Source: an uncultured Dehalococcoidia bacterium
GTDB taxonomy: Bacteria; Chloroflexota; Dehalococcoidia; Lucifugimonadales; UBA3495
Length of the DNA: 64,000 bases
Direction of reading: 5' to 3'
Assembly (NCBI GenBank): GCA_951813535.1
Contig: OX638345.1
Span: forward strand, 881,029 to 945,028
Below the pieces are notes generated by a model. The model was given only the letters and a program-made list of their open reading frames with translations, ran no database searches and had not been told where the DNA came from. Positions 5,910-42,482 of this stretch are shown here, piece after piece (the first letter of the stretch is position 1; each line of letters starts with the position of its first letter). The position numbers and the translations under genes were made by a program.

Positions 5910-6588
5910 TGTCCCGCGTCAACCATAAGGCCATTCGCTGCCACAAGGTGTTGAATCGGCTGGTGTGGTCGCCCCGTGATGCGGCGCGCAACCTGATCGT
6001 GCTGCTCCGCCATTTGGATCGCGGCGACGGTCCGTTGATCTTCGGCGTGCGATCATCGACCAATCAGGAAACCCTGGAATTGCGGCGCGGCGACAAGATC
6101 AGGCCCGAGGCATCTACCCGGGCGCGGAGCGCTCCAGTCGCCACCAACTGGTCAAGGCCAGTGGTTTGCGCTGGACCGCGCTGATGCGGGTGGGCCATGT
6201 CCCTGGGACGGCCGACATTGGGCGATGCCAGCGCTCACCGTGCTGGCGGCCTCGACGCGGTACTAACAACGGCAGGGACGCCGGCACAAGAAGGTCACCG
6301 ACTGGGCAAGGCAGGTGGCCATCAAGCTGCGCCGCCGGCTGCCCCAGCGTCCCTTGGTGCTGGCGGGCGACAACGGCTGAACGCCGCCCTCTATGCGCCA
6401 GCAGCACCACGGCAGCCGGGACAGAACGGCCGGCCACCGCTGAAAGGCCTGCGGCGACCCTCGCTGAAAACCCTACTCGAACCGGACAACGTAATTTGGT
6501 CCAGCTCCGAGGCCGCCTGGTACGACGGCGCCATCCGCACGCTGGAACTTACCTCACAGACGACGGTGTGGCACCGCTCCGGCGAGCC
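5910..6588 (+). pseudogene. IS701-like transposase fragment, several frameshifts
   Basis: Pieces in shifting frames match the transposase at 37208-38572: CHKVLNRLVWSPRDAARN, LDRGDGPLIFG, then (other frame) SRHQLVKASGLRWTALM, GRRHKKVTDWARQVAIKLRR, and finally SSEAAWYDGAIRTLELTSQ. Reading stops abruptly where IS21 begins at 6589. The element is dead. Confidence 0.7.
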
Positions 6589-6684
6589 TGTCACTTTACG
6601 CGGTCATTGACCCGGCTTTGCCACGGTCATTGACCCACCCTGGAAGCGTGGTGATGTTGCTAATATCAGGTTGTTGTGTGCCGG

Positions 6685-7452
6685 TCAATCACCCCCTTCG
6701 TTGTTGAGCAGAGCGCGGTGTGGGGACAGCAGTTCCCGGTAGCTGGTGCCTTCGATGACGATCTGGTAGCTGGCGTTGGCCAGCCGGTCCAAGGCGCTGT
6801 TGCCGAGGATGGGGTCGTCGAAGAGGCTGAGCCATTCTTCGACGGCCCGGTTGCTGGTGATGATGAAGCTGGAGGACCGGTGTCGGTTGAGGATGAGCTC
6901 ATAAAGATCGGCGGACTGCTGAGCGGTGAGGCGATGGAGACCCAGGTCGTCGAGGATGAGCAGGTCGGGGGTGAGGAAGGACCGGAAGGCGCGGTCCAGC
7001 GAGTTGTCGACCCGGGCCTGGGCCATGGTTCTGAAGAAGTCGTCGGCGTGGGCGAAGCGGACGGTGTGTCCGGCACGGATGGCCGAGTAGCCCAGGGCCT
7101 GGGCGAGGAAGCTCTTGCCGACGCCGGCGGGTCCTACCAGCAGCACGTGCTCGTGCTTGTCGAGAAACTCCAGGGAGAAGACGGCGTCCAGCAATCGGCG
7201 ATCCAGGGTGATCGACGCCGACCAGTCGAAGTCTTCCAGCCGGCAGGTCTCCTCGAAGCCGGCGTTGTTCAGTCGCAGTTCGATGCGCCGGTGGGCGCGG
7301 CGGTTGACCTCGTCGCTGAGGACGATCTCCAGGAATGAGGCGTAGTCCAGTTGTTCACGACGGGCCAGGGCGATGCGCTCGGGCAGCGTGGCGGCCATGG
7401 CGCCCAGTTTGAGGTTCTTGAGCAAGGGTGTGAGTTCGGTTACACGGGTCAT
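6685..7452 (-). CDS. istB: IS21 helper ATPase IstB
   Basis: This is a 255-residue AAA+ ATPase that assists the IstA transposase. Walker A is VGPAGVGKSFLA, Walker B is LLILDDLGL, and the IstB signature SFIITSNRAVEEW is present. The start at 7452 has GAGGAGACT before it, overlapping the istA stop (TGAGGAG), so translation is coupled with istA. The close homologue is at 48205-48972. Confidence 0.92.
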   Translation of the reverse strand: MTRVTELTPLLKNLKLGAMAATLPERIALARREQLDYASFLEIVLSDEVNRRAHRRIELRLNNAGFEETCRLEDFDWSASITLDRRLLDAVFSLEFLDKHEHVLLVGPAGVGKSFLAQALGYSAIRAGHTVRFAHADDFFRTMAQARVDNSLDRAFRSFLTPDLLILDDLGLHRLTAQQSADLYELILNRHRSSSFIITSNRAVEEWLSLFDDPILGNSALDRLANASYQIVIEGTSYRELLSPHRALLNNEGGD

Positions 7453-30063: not shown

Positions 30064-31062
30064 CTACAAGTTTATTGTGGGTTCCTCGTAATCCTTTAGC
30101 TTGTTGTAGATTTGGAGCCGGTGATGGTAGGACTCCAAAACTATGATCCGGTCGTCTGCGTCAACGTTGACAGCCACTGGCCGCCGGAACCGCCATTCAG
30201 GCTCCAGATCTGTCCGCCGCCTGGCTTTGATGATATCCGGATTGGCGTCGATGTAGGTCTGGGCCCATGGCGAAGGCTCTTGGGCGTCACCGACCAGCGC
30301 CGTAATATATTGGCCGTCGGCGGCGTAGATCTGGACTCGGTGGTTCCCCCAGTCAGTTACGTATACATCTCCATCTGAGTCCACAGCTACACCGGATGGC
30401 CCTTTGAGCGAACCCACCCCGGTGCTGGAGCCTTCGAACTTAACGAGCAACTCTCCAGTAGGGGCGAATTTTTGCACCCGGTTATTTCCCCAATCCGCGA
30501 CGTAGATGTTGTCCTGACGGTCGATGCAGATGCCCCATGGCATCTCCAGATATCCGTCACCGCCACCTCGCTTCCCGAATTTGGACTGAAACTCACCGAT
30601 CTGGCTGAAACTCTGCACCCGGTGATTCAAGCTGTCCACCACCCAAATGGTTCCCCGGGAGTCGAAAGCAATTCCTGACGGTCCGTTTAGCTGCCCGTCT
30701 CCGCTGCCGGACCTGCCCCAGTGATATCGATAACCACCCTCTTCGCTGTAAATGGTTATCCGGTTGAGATACTCGTCCGAAACGAACACTCGGCCGGTAC
30801 GGTCCAAATCAATTGACCGGGGCCAAACGAATTGCCCGTCTTCCTCGCCGCCGGAGCCGAACTGTCCCTGAAAATCGTGGTCAAAGTTGATCTTGGTGAC
30901 ACGCTGCCCCAATTGTTCCACACCGCGGCTCAACACATAAATTCGACCGTTCGGTCCCAGGACGAAATCCTGGGGAGTCCAAAATCCCCGGCCGGCCTGA
31001 CTGTACATGCCTATGCAGTCGCTGTAGTCATACACCCGTCCGGCGGCTACGGTGGTCAGCAT
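30064..31062 (-). CDS. NHL-repeat beta-propeller protein
   Basis: This 332-residue protein is made of NHL repeats, each with a GxPxGIAxDxxGxIWVVDxxNHRVQ-type pattern (for example GPSGIAFDSRGTIWVVD, LEMPWGICIDRQDNIYVADW, LKGPSGVAVDSDGDVYVTDW). About five to six repeats form a closed propeller. There is no signal peptide at the chosen start (GGAGAGGGG precedes it). It is the last gene of the run that begins with DUF1800 and DUF1501 proteins. NHL propellers bind partners or ligands; no enzyme activity can be read here. Confidence 0.85.
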   Translation of the reverse strand: MLTTVAAGRVYDYSDCIGMYSQAGRGFWTPQDFVLGPNGRIYVLSRGVEQLGQRVTKINFDHDFQGQFGSGGEEDGQFVWPRSIDLDRTGRVFVSDEYLNRITIYSEEGGYRYHWGRSGSGDGQLNGPSGIAFDSRGTIWVVDSLNHRVQSFSQIGEFQSKFGKRGGGDGYLEMPWGICIDRQDNIYVADWGNNRVQKFAPTGELLVKFEGSSTGVGSLKGPSGVAVDSDGDVYVTDWGNHRVQIYAADGQYITALVGDAQEPSPWAQTYIDANPDIIKARRRTDLEPEWRFRRPVAVNVDADDRIIVLESYHHRLQIYNKLKDYEEPTINL

Positions 31063-31098
31063 ATCCCCTCTCCCGCGAACTATTTTCGGATCCTAAAG

Positions 31099-32241
31099 CT
31101 ACACGAAGGACATCTGCTCGAAGTGTCCACCGACGATGGGGACAGGGTCAAGTCCCAGCCACTGTTCCGCCAAAGTGGAGTAGAAGCCACGGAAATCATA
31201 GTTGGGCTCCAGGTCTCCCTGAGTGAGATCCTCAGGTTTCAGCGACGGATAGGTCCCGTACATTCCACCATTCACCCGTTCGCCTATGGCGAACGCTACC
31301 CCAGCCGCTCCGTGGTCGGTACCAGTGCCATTATCGCGGACGCGGCGCCCAAACTCGCTGAACAACATGATAATCACCTCGTTTGAGGCGTCGTGCTCAC
31401 GCAGGTCGTCGAAGAAGTCGCGTATGGCAACGGAAATTTCCGTCCAAAGTTTTTCATGTGGTCCCAGCTGGTCATAGTGGGTGTCGAAGGGCCCGTGGGA
31501 GGTGTAAAAGACCTGGGTGCCCAGACCGGCCAGATGCACTTGGGCCACGTCTCTGAGGCGCCTCGCGATGGCATTATTGGCGTACTCTACGTTCGAAGAA
31601 TAGGTTTCGGGAGCAACCCGGATGATGTCGGCTCCTCGTAACGCATCCCGTCCTGCCTGTCCCAGATATTCCATGGTCGGTCCGGCGCCGATGAGGGGAG
31701 AGTACATGCGGGCAAAGGTCTCCAACAACTGGACCCGATCTTGCTCGGAGGCGATTCCCGGATTTGATGAGAGTACACCGTATGAAGGAAGGTGGTTGAC
31801 AGAAGTAACAGGAACCCCCTTCATGGCCAGTGCCCGAGGCAAGCCCTGGCCCAAGTTAACTCCCTTCAGCACGTTCTCGCCGCCAGGATCCAAGTCCCGG
31901 ACGACCTTGGCGAGCCAGCCGTTAATACCAATGGAATCCGGCTCGCAGGTATGCCAAATGTCCATGGCACGAAAGTGCGAACGGGGTGAATTTTCAAACC
32001 CGATTCCGTGAATGATTGCCATGTTGCCCTGGTCGTAGATTTCTTTCAACGGCTCCGAATCGGCCCGGAATGCCAGTTGGTCATTTATGGGCAGCAATTG
32101 GTCTTCAGGGACATGGACCTTGGGCCGGTTATCCCAATACAGGGGATTGCTATAAGGAACAATCGTATTGAGATAGTCGTTGGCCCCAGTTAGCTCCAGC
32201 ACGACCAGCACAGGGTCTTTATGGGTTGATGCCATGTTCAT
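31099..32241 (-). CDS. DUF1501 family protein
   Basis: This 380-residue protein has DUF1501 landmarks: VLVVLELTGANDYLNTIVPY near the start, NMAIIHGIGFENSPRSHFRA, HGPFDTHYDQLGPHEKLWTE and IIMLFSEFGRRVRDNGTGTD with HGAAG following. The family is related to the alkaline phosphatase/sulfatase fold. These proteins are almost always encoded beside a DUF1800 protein, as here. No Tat signal is visible, which is unusual for the family. The ATG at 32235 has better spacing to AGAAGGA than the ATG at 32241. Confidence 0.88.
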   Translation of the reverse strand: MNMASTHKDPVLVVLELTGANDYLNTIVPYSNPLYWDNRPKVHVPEDQLLPINDQLAFRADSEPLKEIYDQGNMAIIHGIGFENSPRSHFRAMDIWHTCEPDSIGINGWLAKVVRDLDPGGENVLKGVNLGQGLPRALAMKGVPVTSVNHLPSYGVLSSNPGIASEQDRVQLLETFARMYSPLIGAGPTMEYLGQAGRDALRGADIIRVAPETYSSNVEYANNAIARRLRDVAQVHLAGLGTQVFYTSHGPFDTHYDQLGPHEKLWTEISVAIRDFFDDLREHDASNEVIIMLFSEFGRRVRDNGTGTDHGAAGVAFAIGERVNGGMYGTYPSLKPEDLTQGDLEPNYDFRGFYSTLAEQWLGLDPVPIVGGHFEQMSFV

Positions 32242-32270
32242 ATCCTTCTACATCAGTTGTATGCGCTTGC

Positions 32271-33686
32271 CTAGGCAAACTGATATTCTCGCGAGGCGGC
32301 AATCAAGGTCAAGATCTTGCTCACATGGCGCATTGTAGCCCTGAATTCTTCGTGGGTGCTCCAGGCTAGATCGCCAAATTTTTCGGCATTGGCAATCAAT
32401 TCAGAGTGGGTCTCCCTATTGACTTCCAACGGTCCCATCTCATCGAGACAAGCTTCCACGATCGCCCGGGGGGAAGAATCCCCATGCACATGCACATTCA
32501 CCAACACCCGTTTGACGATAGCCTGCACGCCGGGTAGTGAGATGTCTCCAAATATCCTCGCGGCAAAGTTCACCCGGCGCATCAAAACGCCGGGGTCGAT
32601 CCATTCTGAGCCTGTGTGCCAACCCTCCACACTGGGAGGATTGAGCAGCTCCTGTCCCTGCCAACCGCACTCCAACGCCAGATTGTTGAATCCTGGCTTG
32701 AAGCCTTCATAGTTGCCCGCCATACGCACAGTGCCAACGATCAATTCAGCCGGGCTTTTCACCCGGGCGAAGCGGGCATTCTTGAAGAACTCTGAGTTGA
32801 ACAACGCTCGTAAAATAGACCGGATGTCGCCACGGGATTCATTGTAGGCATCCGCCAACAACTCGATGGCTTCAGGGTCAACCGGTGGTGTAATGTTCCA
32901 ACTGGCGACATGGGGCTCGTCGGCGACGAAGAATCTGTAGAGGTGACGGGCCAGGAACCGGGCCGTAGCCGGTTGATCCGCAATAATGTCCACGATGTCT
33001 TCGCCATTGAAGTTCCCGGTATACCCCAGGAAGGTCTTCTCCCGATCGTCGTGGTCCTCAGGTTTGTAGTCGAATAGCCAGTGGAAACGACCGTAAGGAT
33101 TACGGGGAATCTTTGGGGCAATCGTCCATCCGGTAAAGGCCCTGGCTGCTTCCCTGATATCATCCTCTGAGTAGTTTCCGACTCCGAGGGAGAACAGCTC
33201 CAACAGCTCCCGCCCCCAGTTTTCATTTATGGCACCGTCACGATTTCCCTGGTTGTCCAACCAGAAGATCATGGCTGGCGACTTTGCAACCTCTACCAGC
33301 AGGTCGCGGTAAGTACCCAATCCGTATTCACGGAAGATGGCAATCTGGCGAGTCAGCTCCATTGGATTGTCCACCTTGGAGTTGCTGGTGGCGAACAACT
33401 GATGCCAGAAGAGGGCCATCTTCTCTTCCAGAGGCCGTTTGGTGTTGATCATCCGGAACACCCAATTGGCCTGATTTATTGCCGGCGACCCGGCTCCCTC
33501 ATAACCCGGGAACAACCGGTACAGCAGTTCGTCGTCTATGGCCGGCTGCCGCTCTGGATACAGCAGCTCCTCGACCACGGCTTCGTAGCCTTTGGAGACA
33601 CGCTCCTCCAGTTCCTCACGGGTATCACCGAAGCCTGCCCGTCTCATTAAATGGGCCATCAATCGAATGTCTTCTTGGGGGGGCAT
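32271..33686 (-). CDS. DUF1800 family protein
   Basis: The start at 33686 (GGAGAGGTGGTA before it) gives 471 residues, the usual family length, beginning MPPQEDIRLMAHLMRRAGFG. Typical DUF1800 features follow: MALFWHQLFATSNSKV, INENWGRELLELFSLGVGNY, ARAFTGWTI, ARFLARHLYRFFVADEP and a C-terminal PSVEGWHTGSEWI. Upstream in-frame codons to 33974 run through a solo IS66 end and are not part of the gene. It forms an operon with the DUF1501 and NHL genes. The biochemical function is unknown. Confidence 0.88.
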   Translation of the reverse strand: MPPQEDIRLMAHLMRRAGFGDTREELEERVSKGYEAVVEELLYPERQPAIDDELLYRLFPGYEGAGSPAINQANWVFRMINTKRPLEEKMALFWHQLFATSNSKVDNPMELTRQIAIFREYGLGTYRDLLVEVAKSPAMIFWLDNQGNRDGAINENWGRELLELFSLGVGNYSEDDIREAARAFTGWTIAPKIPRNPYGRFHWLFDYKPEDHDDREKTFLGYTGNFNGEDIVDIIADQPATARFLARHLYRFFVADEPHVASWNITPPVDPEAIELLADAYNESRGDIRSILRALFNSEFFKNARFARVKSPAELIVGTVRMAGNYEGFKPGFNNLALECGWQGQELLNPPSVEGWHTGSEWIDPGVLMRRVNFAARIFGDISLPGVQAIVKRVLVNVHVHGDSSPRAIVEACLDEMGPLEVNRETHSELIANAEKFGDLAWSTHEEFRATMRHVSKILTLIAASREYQFA

Positions 33687-33786
33687 TACCACCTCTCCGT
33701 TTATCGAGCCCAGAACACTAAGCCAGCCGCCAGTTCGCAACATATTAGGATTGGCCAAGTCGAATGTCAACAAAAAGCCGTAATCG

Positions 33787-33852
33787 TAACTGTTCAGGGT
33801 TGATGAGGCGAATTTGCCGGGTCCACGGTCCCGCTGAAAAACACTGGCGTCC
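33787..33852 (+). repeat. Solo IS66 end
   Basis: The stretch starting TAACTGTTCAGGGTTGATGA matches the left end of the 29640 element over about 65 bp with few differences. No transposase is attached. It lies about 100 bp upstream of the DUF1800 start and reads away from it. Confidence 0.65.
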
Positions 33853-34075
33853 AAGCCTGAATCCACCGAAGGGTTGCGGTGGCGGCGGTCAGACGAAGGC
33901 TGAAGTGGATTCGGGCTGAAAGGCGATTGCCCTGGTGAGGGTTCCGCTCCACTTGACACAAATTGGGTAGACACTTAAACTTTTTACCAACCTTCGAAGC
34001 TAATGGAATCCCGGTGAGGCAGGAGGAGCGGCTGATTATGAGCGCCCCTGAATCAATCGAAATCTACCGCGCAGG

Positions 34076-34105
34076 CGCCACGGCCGCAACCGTGGCGTTT
34101 TTTTT
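34076..34105 (+). terminator. Intrinsic terminator 1
   Basis: An 8-bp GC-rich stem (CGCCACGG/CCGTGGCG) with a 6-base loop is followed by eight T residues. Confidence 0.8.
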
Positions 34106-34191
34106 GGCCAACACCGTACCGGGCGACGGCAAGGAGGGGGAGGGGAACGATAATATGATCGCCCCAGATATCGCACAATTGCCCACCCTGG

Positions 34192-34222
34192 GCGCCACGA
34201 CCGAAGGTCGTGGCGCTTTTTT
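34192..34222 (+). terminator. Intrinsic terminator 2
   Basis: An 11-bp stem (GCGCCACGACC/GGTCGTGGCGC) with loop GAA is followed by six T residues. The sequence is related to terminator 1. Confidence 0.85.
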
Positions 34223-34381
34223 CTTGCCTGAACCCAGAGGCTGCCCGGCGGAGCTCATCGCCCACGTGCCGCCTGGTCCGCTGCGATCGGGTATCGCGAT
34301 GGGATGCGGGCCTCAGGTGGCTGAAACCTGAACGTTTGCGTCCGCCAATTCATAGACTGTCGCGTTACACAGGAGATTTCC

Positions 34382-35143
34382 ATGGCAGCGATAATGCAGG
34401 ACTACCGTGCAGTCTTCATCAGCGATACCCACCTGGGCTTCAAAGGTTCGCGAGCCAAGGCGTTGGCCGAATTCCTAGCGAGCCACCACAGCGAACATCT
34501 ATATCTCGTCGGCGATATCGTTGACGCCTGGCGCATGCACCGCAAGGTCTATTGGCCCAGGCACCACACCCGCGTCGTCAGCGAACTGCTGGCCAAATCC
34601 AACAATGGCACCACGGTTCACTACATCGTCGGCAACCACGACGAGACATTTCGCAGCTGGCTCGATTGGGGGTTGAGCCTGGGCAAAATCAGGTTTTCCA
34701 ACGAACTGGACCATTACGGTCTGGACGGTAAACGGTACCTGGTAATCCACGGCGACCTCTTCGACGGGCTGATGCACAGCGGCGTCGGGCGCACGGTCAT
34801 GTTCCTGGGAACGTGGGGTTACGACGTGCTGTTGTCGGTCAACGGGTACACCGACTGGGTGCTGGGCCTGTTCAACATGCCGCCCTGCAGCCTCACCTCG
34901 CTGGCCAAACGCCGTACCAAATCTGCCGTTTCATACGTCCTCAAATTTGAATCGTTGCTTTCCGAACACGCCCGACGACACCGGTACGACGGCGTAATAT
35001 GTGGGCACATCCACACGCCCGAAATCAAAAAGATCGACGACACCATCTACATGAACTGCGGCGACTGGGTGGAAAACTGCAGCGCCCTGGTAGAGCATCA
35101 CGACGGCAGGTGGGAATTGGTCAAGTGGCATGAAGACGAGTAA
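34382..35143 (+). CDS. LpxH-like metallophosphoesterase
   Basis: This 253-residue calcineurin-type phosphoesterase resembles UDP-2,3-diacylglucosamine hydrolase. The metal-binding motifs are in order: SDTHLGF (near 15), GDIVDAW, GNHDE and GHIHTPE near the C-terminus. The ribosome site CAGGAG lies just before the start. It overlaps the next gene by 14 bp, so the pair is translationally coupled. With a GT4 glycosyltransferase as partner and no lipid A genes nearby, a role in glycolipid or glycan metabolism rather than lipid A is likely inference. Confidence 0.85.
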   Translation: MAAIMQDYRAVFISDTHLGFKGSRAKALAEFLASHHSEHLYLVGDIVDAWRMHRKVYWPRHHTRVVSELLAKSNNGTTVHYIVGNHDETFRSWLDWGLSLGKIRFSNELDHYGLDGKRYLVIHGDLFDGLMHSGVGRTVMFLGTWGYDVLLSVNGYTDWVLGLFNMPPCSLTSLAKRRTKSAVSYVLKFESLLSEHARRHRYDGVICGHIHTPEIKKIDDTIYMNCGDWVENCSALVEHHDGRWELVKWHEDE

Positions 35144-36179
35144 TCGACCGCACCTTGCGCTGGTAACCGACGCCTGGTCGCCCCAGGTCAACGGAGTGGT
35201 AACCACCCTTTCGAATCTGGTTCGGCTGGTGCGGGCATCGGGCATCGACGTGACGGTGGTCGAGCCCTCCATGTTCCGCTCCATCCGGCTGCCCGGTTAC
35301 GCCGAGGTGCGTATGGCTGCCGCTCCGGTAGCAGTCTATAAAACCATGGGCGCGCTCCGGCCCGATTACGTTCACATCGCCACCGAAGGCCCCCTGGGAG
35401 CCACCGCCCGGTTCTGGTGCCGGCGGCGCAGTTTCCCGTTTACCACCAGCTATCACACTCAATTTGACCAATACGCCAAACGAGTGTACGGCATCCCTCC
35501 GGCGCCGGTAACCGCCTACATGCGCTGGTTCCACGGCGCCGCCGAGAAAACCCTCGTCCCCACTCCCAGCGTGGCCCGGGAGCTGGAATCCACTGGCTTT
35601 CAAAACCTGGTGGTCTGGTCCCGCGGCGTCGATTCCACCTTATATCACCCGTCCGCCAGGGACACCGACTGGTACGACACCGGCAACCCCGACGCTCGCG
35701 TGCTCCTTTACGTGGGCCGAGTCAGCAAGGAAAAGAGTGTGGAGGACTTCTGCCGGCTGGCTCAAAGCCCTGATTACTCGTGCTGGGTGGTTGGCGACGG
35801 CCCTCACCGCCGGGAACTGGCGGAACGCTACGGGGATCGCGTCCGCTTCGTCGGGTACAAATACGGTGAGGAACTGGCCAGGTATTACGCCTCCGCCGAC
35901 GTCATGGTGTTCCCCAGCCGCACCGACACATTCGGCAACGTGATGACCGAGAGCATGGCCACCGGAACCCCCATCGCCGCCTACCCGGTTACCGGCCCCA
36001 TCGACGTGGTGGCCGACGGATATTCCGGCGCCCTGGAAGAAGACCTGGCCGCCGCCGTGGAAAGAGCGCTGACCTGCGACCGGGACCAAGTGCGTGAGTA
36101 CGCCACACGTTTCTCCTGGGAATCCTGCGCCCAGACCTTCATCGATTCCCTCGCCCGGCCGGACACTGACCAAGCTTAA
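35130..36179 (+). CDS. GT4-family glycosyltransferase
   Basis: This 349-residue retaining glycosyltransferase has the N-terminal acceptor domain (LVTDAWSPQVNGVVTTLSNL, TSYHTQFDQYAKR) and a C-terminal nucleotide-sugar domain (LYVGRVSKEKSVEDF, WVVGDGPHRREL, then VFPSRTDTFGNVMTESMA with the conserved acidic pair region). It resembles the MgtA/SqdX-type group that glycosylates membrane lipids. It is coupled to the phosphoesterase gene and stands tail to tail with the UDP-glucose dehydrogenase remnant. Confidence 0.88.
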   Translation: MKTSNRPHLALVTDAWSPQVNGVVTTLSNLVRLVRASGIDVTVVEPSMFRSIRLPGYAEVRMAAAPVAVYKTMGALRPDYVHIATEGPLGATARFWCRRRSFPFTTSYHTQFDQYAKRVYGIPPAPVTAYMRWFHGAAEKTLVPTPSVARELESTGFQNLVVWSRGVDSTLYHPSARDTDWYDTGNPDARVLLYVGRVSKEKSVEDFCRLAQSPDYSCWVVGDGPHRRELAERYGDRVRFVGYKYGEELARYYASADVMVFPSRTDTFGNVMTESMATGTPIAAYPVTGPIDVVADGYSGALEEDLAAAVERALTCDRDQVREYATRFSWESCAQTFIDSLARPDTDQA

Positions 36180-36210: not shown

Positions 36211-37184
36211 CTATCCGGCCAAACCCGGTCCCACCAGTTGAAGCAGGCCGGCCTCCGGTAAACTGCTGCGCACCGAGCCCCGACCCACTCCAAGGTACTC
36301 AAACCCCAGGCGGTCCATCTCGATCGGGTCCAGCGCGTTGCGCCCGTCGAACACGTACCGCGGCGGCAGCATGCAGCGGGCCACGATCTGCCAGTCCGAT
36401 TGAACGATCTGGTCCCACTCAGTCAGCAGTACCAGCGCCTGGGCCCGATTGGCCGCCTCCGCCACGCTGGGCACCAGGTCGACCGACGGCGGCAGGTGGG
36501 GTCGGGCCGACTCCGAGGCGTGGGGGTCAAAGGCCCGAATGCTGATCCCCTCGTCCACCAGAGCCCGTATCAGGTCCAGGGACGGGGCATCCCTCACGTC
36601 GTCGGTTTCGGGCTTGAAGGACAACCCCAGGATGCCCACCCGCAGACCGGACAACGCGCCGTCGAACCGGCGCCGCAATGCGTGCAGCGGCAGCACCCTC
36701 TGCCGGTTGTTAGTGTTGATAACGGACCGCAGCAGGTCGGCGTTTGCCCCGCTGGTCAGGGCCAGGTAGTCCAGCGCCCGTACGTCCTTGGGGAAGCACG
36801 ACCCGCCATACCCGACACCGGCGTATATCCTGGCCCCCGTGCGGGAATCCATGGCCAGACCCTCGCTGACCGCATCTATGGACGCCCCCACCGACCCGCA
36901 AAGCGCGGCTATCTCGTTGATAAAGGATATGCGGGTGGCGAGGAAGGCGTTGGAGGCGTACTTGATCATCTCCGCGCTGGTCACGTCGGTGACCATGTGC
37001 GGCGCCTCTATCCCGACGTGCATCCGTTCCGCCAGCTCCGCCGTTGCATAGTCTTCGGCCCCAATCACGATGCGGTCCGGCGCGTCCCAGTCCCTCACGG
37101 CCCGTCCCTCCCGCAAAAACTCCGGGTTAGAGACGTAACGGATGCCAGTTCCCGTCAGTTCGTGCTCAATAATCCGGCGGCCCG
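36211..37184 (-). pseudogene. ugd: UDP-glucose 6-dehydrogenase, C-terminal part (cut by IS)
   Basis: From GTGRRIIEHELTGTGIRYVS onward this encodes the rest of UDP-glucose/GDP-mannose dehydrogenase: SNPEFLREGRAVRDW, SAEMIKYASNAFLATRISFI, the active-site segment YAGVGYGGSCFPKDVRALDY with the catalytic Cys, and the C-terminal domain (LGLSFKPETDDVRDAPSLDL). The enzyme oxidises UDP-glucose to UDP-glucuronate for surface polysaccharides or glycolipids. The gene is interrupted at the codons for VPPGT by the IS at 37193-38646; removing it and one 8-bp duplicate restores VPPGTGRR exactly. Confidence 0.88.
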
Positions 37185-37192
37185 TGCCGGGG

Positions 37193-38646
37193 CTCGAGTT
37201 TGTACAATCAGGCAGCATAAGCGAGGGTCTCGATCATCCTGCGGTATGTCCCGCGTGGGAGTTTTATCAGTTCAGAGTTGGGCTCGGACGTGGCAAAAGT
37301 CTCCTGCTGTGCCCAGATGTGTCGCCTGACCAGGGCGATGGCGTCGGCGAAAGTGGGGTTGGTTTTGGCATACCATGCCGTGGTCCGCGGCACTATGCCG
37401 CCCTGCTGTTCAATCAAGACATCCGCCGCCAGGGTCACCAGGCTGAACAAACCAAAGAGTGCGGGGGTGGTTCTGGCGATGGCACGCTCGGACCACTGGC
37501 GCTGGGTTTCCATGCCCAAGTGAGCCCGCAGTTCCTCGAAGGTCACCTCGACCTGCCAACGCAGCAGATACCACTGCACGATCTGCAGGGGATCGGCGTC
37601 GATGTCGGTGCACAGCAAAGCGTGGGGGCCCAGGGGTTCTTCAAGGTGCCGGACCACGACCCAGCGCAGATGGACCGACGGATAGCCGCCGCGGTACCAC
37701 AGCGCCACGCCAGAAGTCAGCTCGATCATGAGATCGGCGCCGTCGGATGTGGTGGCACGGCAGGGGGTCCATGGGGTGGCGGGATCGTCCAGCACCGCGG
37801 TGGGACTGGGCAGTCGCGCTCCCACCACCCGGGGCCGGCCGATCTGACCGGGCCGTCGCGGCGGCGCTGGCTGGTACAGGGACGCGTCTTTGCGCAGTTT
37901 GGTTATGACGACAATAGGCTTGGACATGCTCTGGCAGTGGAGCAGGAAATCACGCTTGGCGTAGCCGCCGTCGCAGACTACCACCAGGTCCCGATCCGGC
38001 AGCCACCGACGCAGACAGTCCAGCATCTGCTGAGCGTAGTCGGTGAACCGCTTATGGCGACGACCCTTGAGCCAGTCATAGCGGTTCGACGGTACCAGCG
38101 CGGTCAGGAAGGGCAACGCCCAGTGGCGACCGGCCCACCCGATACGGGTCAGCAGCATCAGGCTGACCCATTGCAGTCCGGGAGTCATCACCACCTGGTC
38201 GTCGGTGGAGCGCACCGGGTCCCGATACCTCCCCTTGGCCGCAATCTTTGGGCCCCAGCGTCGCTCCACCGTCTCGTCGATGCCGAACACCAGGGGCTCG
38301 GTGGATGAACCCAAGCGGCCAATCAGCAGCAGCAACAGCACCCGGCTCAGTTGCAGCGGCTGCCACCGGGCCCGGTTGAGCACCTGGTGAAAGACGGCGA
38401 AGTCTCCGCTCTGGCCAATCCCCAGGATGCTCAGCGCGGACGATACCGTGCGCTTGCCAGGAGAAAGGATCGCACCCACCACCAGGAGTTGGGCCTTGCG
38501 CCAGGTCCTGCGGTCGAACAGGTGCTCAAAGGGGAACAGCACGGTTACAATGACGGTGGGCAGGGAGGACATGCTTGACCTCTTGTGGTGATTTGGTCAA
38601 GCTTACCCTGTCCTTATAACTTTTCTAGTTTTTGTACAAAGTCGAG
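37193..38646 (-). mobile_element. Complete 1,454-bp IS701-like element in ugd
   Basis: The ends are CTCGAGTTTGTACAA and CTCGACTTTGTACAA (14 of 15 match) in inverted orientation. The flanking 8-bp target duplication is TGCCGGGG at 37185-37192 and 38647-38654. The element encodes a single intact transposase, so this is a recent and probably competent insertion. Confidence 0.9.
37208..38572 (-). CDS. IS701-like DDE transposase
   Basis: A 454-residue transposase of the IS4 superfamily (DDE_5/IS701-like). Key segments: LVFGIDETVERRWGPKIAAK with the first Asp, a central WLPDRDLVVVCDGGYAKRDF with the second Asp, and VQWYLLRWQVEVTFEELRAH with the catalytic Glu (YxxRWxxEvtFeE). It is complete, unlike the related fragments at 2075, 5910, 9139 and 27387. 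Confidence 0.88.
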   Translation of the reverse strand: MSSLPTVIVTVLFPFEHLFDRRTWRKAQLLVVGAILSPGKRTVSSALSILGIGQSGDFAVFHQVLNRARWQPLQLSRVLLLLLIGRLGSSTEPLVFGIDETVERRWGPKIAAKGRYRDPVRSTDDQVVMTPGLQWVSLMLLTRIGWAGRHWALPFLTALVPSNRYDWLKGRRHKRFTDYAQQMLDCLRRWLPDRDLVVVCDGGYAKRDFLLHCQSMSKPIVVITKLRKDASLYQPAPPRRPGQIGRPRVVGARLPSPTAVLDDPATPWTPCRATTSDGADLMIELTSGVALWYRGGYPSVHLRWVVVRHLEEPLGPHALLCTDIDADPLQIVQWYLLRWQVEVTFEELRAHLGMETQRQWSERAIARTTPALFGLFSLVTLAADVLIEQQGGIVPRTTAWYAKTNPTFADAIALVRRHIWAQQETFATSEPNSELIKLPRGTYRRMIETLAYAA

Positions 38647-38654
38647 TGCCGGGG

Positions 38655-39022
38655 GGGACCGTGCTTTTCATCACCACCACCAGGCCGGGACGCCCAGCGG
38701 CTTTGATCCACGAAACCGCAGCCATCACCTGGTTGAGGTCGGCGGCGCCGCCGTGGGTGGGAGGTGTTCCGGTGGCGATCAATGCCGCTTCGCCCAGATC
38801 TTCCACCACGTCATCTCGGTGCCGAAAGCACAGCAGACCCCTGGCCAACCCCTCCGCAACCCTGGCTTCCAGGCCCGGTTCGTAGAGGGGGACGCGCCCT
38901 TTGTCCAGCGCTTCGATGCGGACGCGGTCGATGTCGACGCCCAGGACCTCATGCCCCCCCGCCGCCAACCCGGCCGCCGCCACGATGCCCACGTATCCCA
39001 TACCAACTACGGTGATCTTCAA
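38655..39022 (-). pseudogene. ugd: UDP-glucose 6-dehydrogenase, N-terminal part (cut by IS)
   Basis: This is the Rossmann NAD-binding start of the dehydrogenase: KITVVGMGYVGIVAAAGLAA, GHEVLGVDIDRVRIEAL, ATGTPPTHGGAADLNQV, ending VVMKSTVPPGT at the insertion. The TTG at 39022 has GGGAGG eight bases upstream and begins directly at the beta strand; an ATG at 39040 is the longer alternative. Together with 36211-37184 it would make a protein of about 450 residues, normal for the family. Confidence 0.88.
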
Positions 39023-39040
39023 TTCCGATCCTCCCGCCAT

Positions 39041-40898: not shown

Positions 40899-41540
40899 CC
40901 GATCGCTTGGTTTGAGCTGTCGCCGTTTAGGGCATGAACTAAACAAAGCCAGGGTGAAATGCGCAGAGGCATGGGGTAAATTGGGGTCAGTTGGGTTAGG
41001 TGGTTTCAGGAGTTGCGAGGGGTTGATGATGGGGGTCAGAGAGATAGAGCGGTCTCTGGAACAATGGCAGCTGGGGATCAAGGACTTGCGGAGGCGGATG
41101 CTGCTGGCGCCGACGCCCCGGGAGCGGGAACGGTGGTACGCCATCCTGCTCTTGGTCCAGGGCTTGACGGCGGCGGCCACGGCGGAGGCGCTGGAGCGGG
41201 ACCCTCACACCATCGGGCGCTGGGCGTCGGCCTTCGGCGCGGGCGGGCCTGCGGCATTGATGTTCGAGCAGACCGGTGGTTCCCCCCCGCCCTTGACGAG
41301 GCGCAGCAGGAGGATTTGAAAAGGGCGGTGCAGGAGTCGCCGACCACGTCGGGCATGGAACTGGCCAACTGGTATTGGAAAGGGGTCAGGCAGTTCGTCT
41401 GCGAACGCTTCGGCGTTGAGTTGAGCCGTAGCAGTTGCTTGAACTGGCTGCACCGGTTGGGGTTCAGCTGCAAGCGGCCCCAGAAGCGCTTGGTCAAGGC
41501 CAATGGGTCCAAGCGGGAGGCCTTCGTGGCAGAGTATGCC

Positions 41541-41595
41541 GCCCTGAGGGAGGAGGCCCAAGGGAGGAGGCCCTGAGGGAGGAGGCCCAAGGGAG
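41541..41595. repeat. 29-bp tandem duplication causing a frameshift
   Basis: The unit GCCCTGAGGGAGGAGGCCCA plus nine bases is repeated almost twice. Because 29 is not a multiple of three, it shifts the transposase frame. Confidence 0.85.
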
Positions 41596-41623
41596 CGGAG
41601 GGAAAATATTCTTGGTCGACGCG

Positions 41624-41713
41624 GCTCACTTCCGGGACGAGGCTCACTTCCGGGACGAGGCTCACTTCCGGGACGAGGCTCACTTCCGGGACGCGGCTCA
41701 CTTCCGGGCGGAC
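41624..41713. repeat. 18-bp tandem array, five units
   Basis: GCTCACTTCCGGGACGAG is repeated, with the fourth and fifth units slightly changed. It adds HFRDEA hexapeptides in frame directly after the first catalytic Asp of the IS630 transposase. Confidence 0.9.
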
Positions 41714-42482
41714 GCGGAACTGAGGGGCAAATGGGCGCTCCGGGGAGAACCGGCCCTGGTGGGCTCGACCAGCCCGCAGTACGGCGAGAAGGCCAGCTAT
41801 TATTCGGCGGTGTGCTTGGAGACGGGCGAGGTGGAATGGATGGAACTGGAGGGGAACAGTAACTCCGGAACTTCGGTTGCCTTCTTGGAACAGTTGCGCC
41901 AGAGGCACAGCGGGCGTCTCAACGTGATCTGTGACAACGCGCCAGCCCATCGCGGAGAGGCGATGCGATCGTACCTGAAGACCCCCGGCCTCAACCTGAG
42001 GCTGGTGAATCTGCTGGGCTACAGCCCGGACTGCAACGCCGATGAGGCCATCTGGGGCTGGGTCAGAGAGGAGGCGACTGGCAATCTGTGCCTGGGAAGC
42101 CGGACGGCGGTTCAGGCAAGGGTCGGCAGGTTCCTGGACGGCCTGGCGGGGCGGAGGATGAGGTGAGACGCCGCTGCCGGACCGTCCTGAAATCAAGGGC
42201 CGAGGCACTCATGCGAGACCCGATGCCTGATTCCCAACACCCGGCAAATGCACATCCCACCTTGGCTTTGGTTTAGATCTCCAACAGCTGGAGGTCATCG
42301 CCCACGGCGACGGGCCGCTGCAGGTCGTCGCCGGGCCCGGTTCCGGCAAGACCACCTGCATCGCCGACCGGGCCGCCAACCTGGTCCTCACGGACCGGGC
42401 CAAGCCCCACGAACTGGCGCTCTGCACTTTCACCAGGGAGGCGGCCGGGGAGATGCGCAACCGGTTCACCGCCACGCTGCGG

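Follow-up and report, generated by a model that had tools for sequence, protein, structure and literature searches.

A lineage-restricted, attenuator-like leader with tandem terminators upstream of a probable plcP-agt operon in an uncultured Dehalococcoidia bacterium

The locus studied here lies within a 64,000-nucleotide stretch of DNA (referred to below as the window) belonging to the genome (G000) of an uncultured Dehalococcoidia bacterium of the marine SAR202 type, which consists of a single contig of 4.38 Mb. The nearest named relative identified in the gene search was the SAR202 cluster bacterium bin87, the locus of which (L026, contig MPNC01000006.1) represents the sister genome, G001. 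The plus-strand segment 33916-34381 carries a promoter, followed by two terminators located 117 nt apart and, beyond these, by a phosphoesterase gene beginning at position 34382. The promoter (33953..33981) is sigma70-like (TTGACA-17-TAAACT), matches 10 of the 12 consensus positions and has the same two hexamers in G001. It is preceded on the same strand by a conserved segment (33916..33952), where the identity between the two genomes begins and the upstream neighbours differ; a small dyad present in this segment, CCCT-GGTG-AGGG (33930-33941), may serve as an operator. On the minus strand, a divergent cluster (30064-33974) encodes an NHL-repeat-like protein along with DUF1501 and DUF1800 proteins. 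The GTG start listed for the DUF1800 frame (33974) overlaps the leader promoter, and this frame is probably too long.

The gene following the leader (34382..35143, plus strand) encodes a calcineurin-like phosphoesterase of the PlcP type, and is overlapped by a gene on the same strand (35130..36179) encoding a GT4 glycosyltransferase, which is probably an Agt-type glycolipid synthase. The description of the first protein as LpxH-like, given in the first-pass annotation, holds at the superfamily level, but its identification as LpxH (UDP-2,3-diacylglucosamine diphosphatase) was rejected, as it scored only 38.4 bits against the NCBIfam/TIGRFAM equivalog cut-off of 190.35 and groups with the PlcP-type phosphoesterases. 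The NCBIfam matches of the GT4 protein include glycolipid synthases, all of which scored under the cut-off. Among the 80 homologous loci, 28 have a glycosyltransferase homolog at most 300 nt downstream of the phosphoesterase homolog, and in the Roseobacter loci L085 and L105 the homolog is directly followed by a gene encoding a DUF3419 (BtaA-type) protein. Since both of these neighborhoods match those described for plcP, which lies in operons with agt- or btaA-type lipid genes (PMC4796936), the present operon is probably of the plcP-agt lipid-remodeling type, in which phospholipids are swapped for sugar lipids. As in the operons described, the PlcP-type phosphoesterase is directly followed by the GT4 glycosyltransferase (PMC4796936). 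The plcP-agt operons published from marine bacteria are described as controlled at the promoter level via Pho boxes (PMC4796936), whereas no Pho-like repeats above the level of shuffled sequences were detected here, either before the leader promoter or before the phosphoesterase gene, although the Pho-box consensus of Chloroflexota may differ. A PhoU-family gene is present in the genome. In the Pho-box repeat test, a clear repeat was obtained only at the homologous locus L027 (also seen as L150), where positions 280-371 carry an 11-nt direct repeat (TTTAACC/TTTAAAC) that none of the 200 shuffles equaled; at this locus, a short frame of 11 codons with its own SD and ATG, but no terminators, stands just before the plcP homolog.

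The leader contains two units, both on the plus strand. The first (34018..34105) consists of an SD sequence (34021-34028), an ATG (34038-34040) and a terminator stem (34073-34100) ending in a run of eight T residues (34098-34105), and the second (34131..34222) consists of a G-rich SD region (34131-34145), an ATG (34155-34157) and a stem (34190-34218) ending in a run of six T residues (34217-34222). Both of the intrinsic terminators (34073-34105 and 34190-34222) are strong: the stem of the first has 11 bp and a loop of 6, and that of the second 13 bp and a loop of 3. In the 464 kb of the genome sampled, which comprise twenty 20-kb stretches and the window, there are 23 terminators of this strength; the leader pair is the only case where two of them occur on the same strand within 200 nt, and these two are the only ones among the 23 to be preceded by an SD-ATG at a distance of at most 75 nt. 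The ribosome sites, which are purine-rich and were previously described as strong, do have good SD cores, but their SD-ATG spacing amounts to 9-11 nt, as compared with 5-6 nt at the phosphoesterase gene.

The sequences preceding the hairpins of the two units are more similar than expected by chance, since only 1 of 2000 shuffle pairs reached their alignment score in G000, and none of 2000 did so in G001. The hairpins themselves share the sequence GGCGCCACG...CGTGGCG, and in both genomes each unit has 37 nt between its ATG and the hairpin core (GCGCCACG). When the four units (two from each species) were aligned, one inner terminator pair was found to be altered on both sides, from G-C to A-U. 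These similarities show that the units are true tandem duplicates with a common ancestry, and they bear out the initial statement that two related units stand in series before the phosphoesterase gene. No further copies of the leader were found within the genome.

The units do not contain two separate short ORFs, as had been proposed, because both ATGs belong to a single frame of 97 codons (34038..34331, plus strand), which runs from the first ATG through both terminators and the in-frame second ATG to a TGA at 34329-34331. The two ATGs (34038 and 34155) lie 117 nt apart in G000; in G001 the distance is 111 nt, and both values are multiples of three. From neither ATG does a stop codon occur before the terminator; the frame stays open up to 34329 in G000, and it is also open in G001 despite an indel of 6 nt, which keeps it in frame. 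The openness of the frame is nevertheless weak evidence and only weakly unusual, since a 97-codon open frame also arose in 483 of 5000 dinucleotide shuffles. The conservation of this frame and the presence of SD sites could mean that the hairpins are spanned by the coding sequence of a genuine 97-residue protein, or of two isoforms of it. Between G000 and G001, however, pN (0.043) equals pS (0.041) in this frame (12 substitutions in all), unlike the constrained phosphoesterase gene, where pN is 0.010 and pS 0.071. With a pN/pS ratio of about 1, the peptide is under no visible constraint, and we therefore take the small-protein reading to be very improbable. In addition, the 97-codon product gave no Pfam match and only weak partial matches in 393 genomes of the class (best E 8.6e-4, 30-46% identity). 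The neutral codon substitutions would fit a peptide of no importance, and lend no positive support to translation. The leader translation (MSAPESIEIYRAGATAATVAFFLA...) shows no regulatory codon run, as already noted in the first-pass annotation.

The tandem layout and the presence of terminators in the leader of a metabolic operon would be in keeping with the cooperative or two-ligand riboswitch suggested in the first-pass annotation. The segments preceding the terminators folded no better than shuffled sequences (z -0.19 and -0.33), however, and the leader has no match in Rfam. Together with the lack of a codon run, these findings argue against both an aptamer and an amino-acid attenuator. 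A covariance model (R1) was built from the four units and used to search 250 genomes of the order, where no convincing relative of the leader was found: the matches from other species, which reached 37 bits at most, fit a G+C-rich terminator, showed no convincing SD-ATG in the alignments read, and were taken to be generic terminators. This distribution, restricted to two species, again speaks against a riboswitch, whether simple or tandem, which we hold to be extremely unlikely. The idea of sequential attenuators fares better, since a tandem attenuator fits both the anatomy and the conservation of the leader. A DNA search of the 393 class genomes also returned a 29-nt match in three genomes, which was discarded: it corresponds to a hairpin having no T-run, located upstream of another gene.

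The block at 33916-34239 is 94% identical in G001. In G000 the gene upstream of it is the divergent DUF1800 gene, whereas in G001 this place is taken by a DDE_Tnp_1-associated transposase gene lying on the opposite strand; since the block has been kept while the upstream gene differs, the leader belongs with the operon and not with its upstream neighbor. The two genomes diverge by 4.6% in unit 1 and by 1.8% plus the 6-nt indel in unit 2, and terminator 2 shows 0 differences in 33 positions, as against 7.1% at the synonymous sites of the phosphoesterase gene, but these numbers are small and the differences between the parts of the leader are only suggestive. Of the 14 genomes in the genus, only 3 have the phosphoesterase, G000 being one of them. 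The leader is absent before the plcP homologs of G012, which belongs to the same genus (72% protein identity), of L027 (71% identity) and of L028-L031; its absence before orthologous phosphoesterase genes, put forward at the outset as an observation that would refute the tandem-attenuator reading, thus applies to all the homologs examined except that of the sister genome. The best reading of this pattern is that the leader is a local, lineage-specific invention and not a conserved riboregulator.

The double terminator might merely stop transcription, giving short RNAs ending at 34105 and 34222 (small RNAs or failed leaders), while the operon is expressed by constitutive leakage or from an unrecognized promoter of its own. 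Duplicated strong terminators would make an economical insulator, the homologous plcP operons manage without a leader, and the frame is unconstrained. On the other hand, no co-directional upstream gene that would need a terminator is seen in either genome, given the orientation of the DUF1800 gene in G000 and of the transposase gene in G001, and a promoter scan restricted to the sigma70 type detected no such site from 34223 up to the phosphoesterase start codon. We regard a plain stop as somewhat unlikely, and it is likely that the leader attenuates transcription.

The leading candidate for the gate of such an attenuator is the passage of ribosomes, which is pointed to by the fact that the frame runs through both stops. 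The mechanism would operate as follows. Transcription would start from the promoter at 33953-33981, which presumably drives the operon, and would by default stop at 34105 or 34222, yielding short leader RNAs, so that the plcP/agt-like operon would be transcribed only if the RNA polymerase passed both stops. Ribosomes would begin translating the leader at unit 1, aided by the start codon of unit 2, which lies in the same frame, and, when following closely behind the polymerase, might keep the hairpins from folding, as occurs at pyrBI of Escherichia coli. Arranged one after the other, the two units would compound the termination and make the response steeper. A ribosome starting at the first ATG would have about 150 nt in which to catch up before terminator 2, and the second stop might therefore be better suppressed than the first. 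In view of the probable role of the operon, phosphate status would be the obvious candidate for the signal. In keeping with this mechanism, the frame is open through both stops and the ATG-hairpin spacing is maintained in both species; the long SD spacing and the restriction of the leader to two closely related genomes count against it.

At the pyrBI operon of E. coli, an advancing ribosome suppresses an intrinsic terminator situated inside the leader ORF (PMC5021804, PMC4824070). The present leader resembles this system in that an intrinsic terminator lies within a leader frame (pyrL in the case of pyrBI) running through it, and differs from it in having two duplicated units instead of one and in its target, which is probably lipid remodeling and not pyrimidine synthesis; any dependence on ribosomes here would be by analogy. 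In E. coli, terminators placed within 100 bp of the beginning of a coding region are usually efficient, as the ribosome has not yet caught up, but are escaped where a pause allows it to do so (PMC4824070). The pyrBI leader has a U-rich pause tract between the start codon and the terminator, whereas no U-rich run was seen here on direct reading of the intervals between ATG and terminator (34041-34072 and 34158-34189); since each terminator stem starts 35 nt after its ATG and is preceded by no such tract, the case for a ribosome gate is weakened. The mgtCBR leader of Salmonella provides a second parallel, with tandem attenuators, mgtM and mgtP, in series and each having its own translation start, as here (PMC3641672). 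There, however, mgtM and mgtP are separate ORFs responding to different signals (ATP and charged tRNA-Pro; PMC3641672), whereas the present units are duplicates threaded by one continuous frame without any regulatory codon run. The literature search gave no match for the combination of tandem terminators, a leader peptide and attenuation.

The attenuator might also be gated in other ways, either by an RNA-binding or antitermination protein recognizing the G-rich GGAGG/GGAGGGG sequences, or by refolding, with the CGCCCC following each ATG pairing with the SD or with the 5' arm of the terminator. Apart from the hairpin, the most similar part of the two units is indeed that extending from the SD to ATGANCGCCCC, and both units are predicted to form a hairpin that sequesters the SD and has the ATG within or next to its loop, one pair of which is changed on both sides from one unit to the other. 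The stability of these hairpins does not clearly exceed that of shuffled sequences (z -0.7 and -0.9, and -1.7 in unit 2 of G001), and the antiterminator pairing of CGCCCC with the terminator 5' arm, which is possible on paper, was set aside, since in G001 a G-to-A change weakens it in unit 1 while leaving the terminator intact. A gate of this kind seems decidedly unlikely. We accordingly view the leader, tentatively and at somewhat less than an even chance, as a lineage-specific transcription attenuator built from a tandem-duplicated SD-ATG-terminator unit, with the ribosome as its most likely gate. In a more specific form, which is doubtful, the single frame threading two duplicated terminators would make up a two-stage, ribosome-gated attenuator with a steep, AND-like response controlling membrane lipid remodeling in an uncultured lineage of Chloroflexota. 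To our knowledge, RNA-based control has been little studied in this phylum. If the mechanism is as proposed, a simple tandem duplication can multiply a ribosome-coupled attenuator, such an attenuator can arise in a single lineage before an otherwise leaderless operon, and post-initiation control has been added to lipid-remodeling genes that have been described as regulated by Pho-box promoters (PMC4796936). The leader is in any case real, unusual, lineage-restricted and attenuator-like, and is assembled from known kinds of parts; it does not look like a new riboswitch.

Mobile elements occur around the operon in both genomes. Next to it in the window, on the minus strand (36211-39040), is a gene for a nucleotide-sugar dehydrogenase (of the UDP-glucose type, by reading), which is interrupted by a transposase gene of the IS701 family (37208-38572); the sister genome carries this dehydrogenase unbroken, as a single frame of 455 aa (L026 4831-6198). 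In L026, the block formed by the phosphoesterase, GT4 and dehydrogenase genes is flanked on both sides by similar transposase gene fragments (2110-2586 and 6107-6737), and it may have moved or been bounded by insertions. Further along the window, a transposase-like frame (41435-42166; IS630-type, by reading) contains about five DEAHFR-like units repeated in frame.
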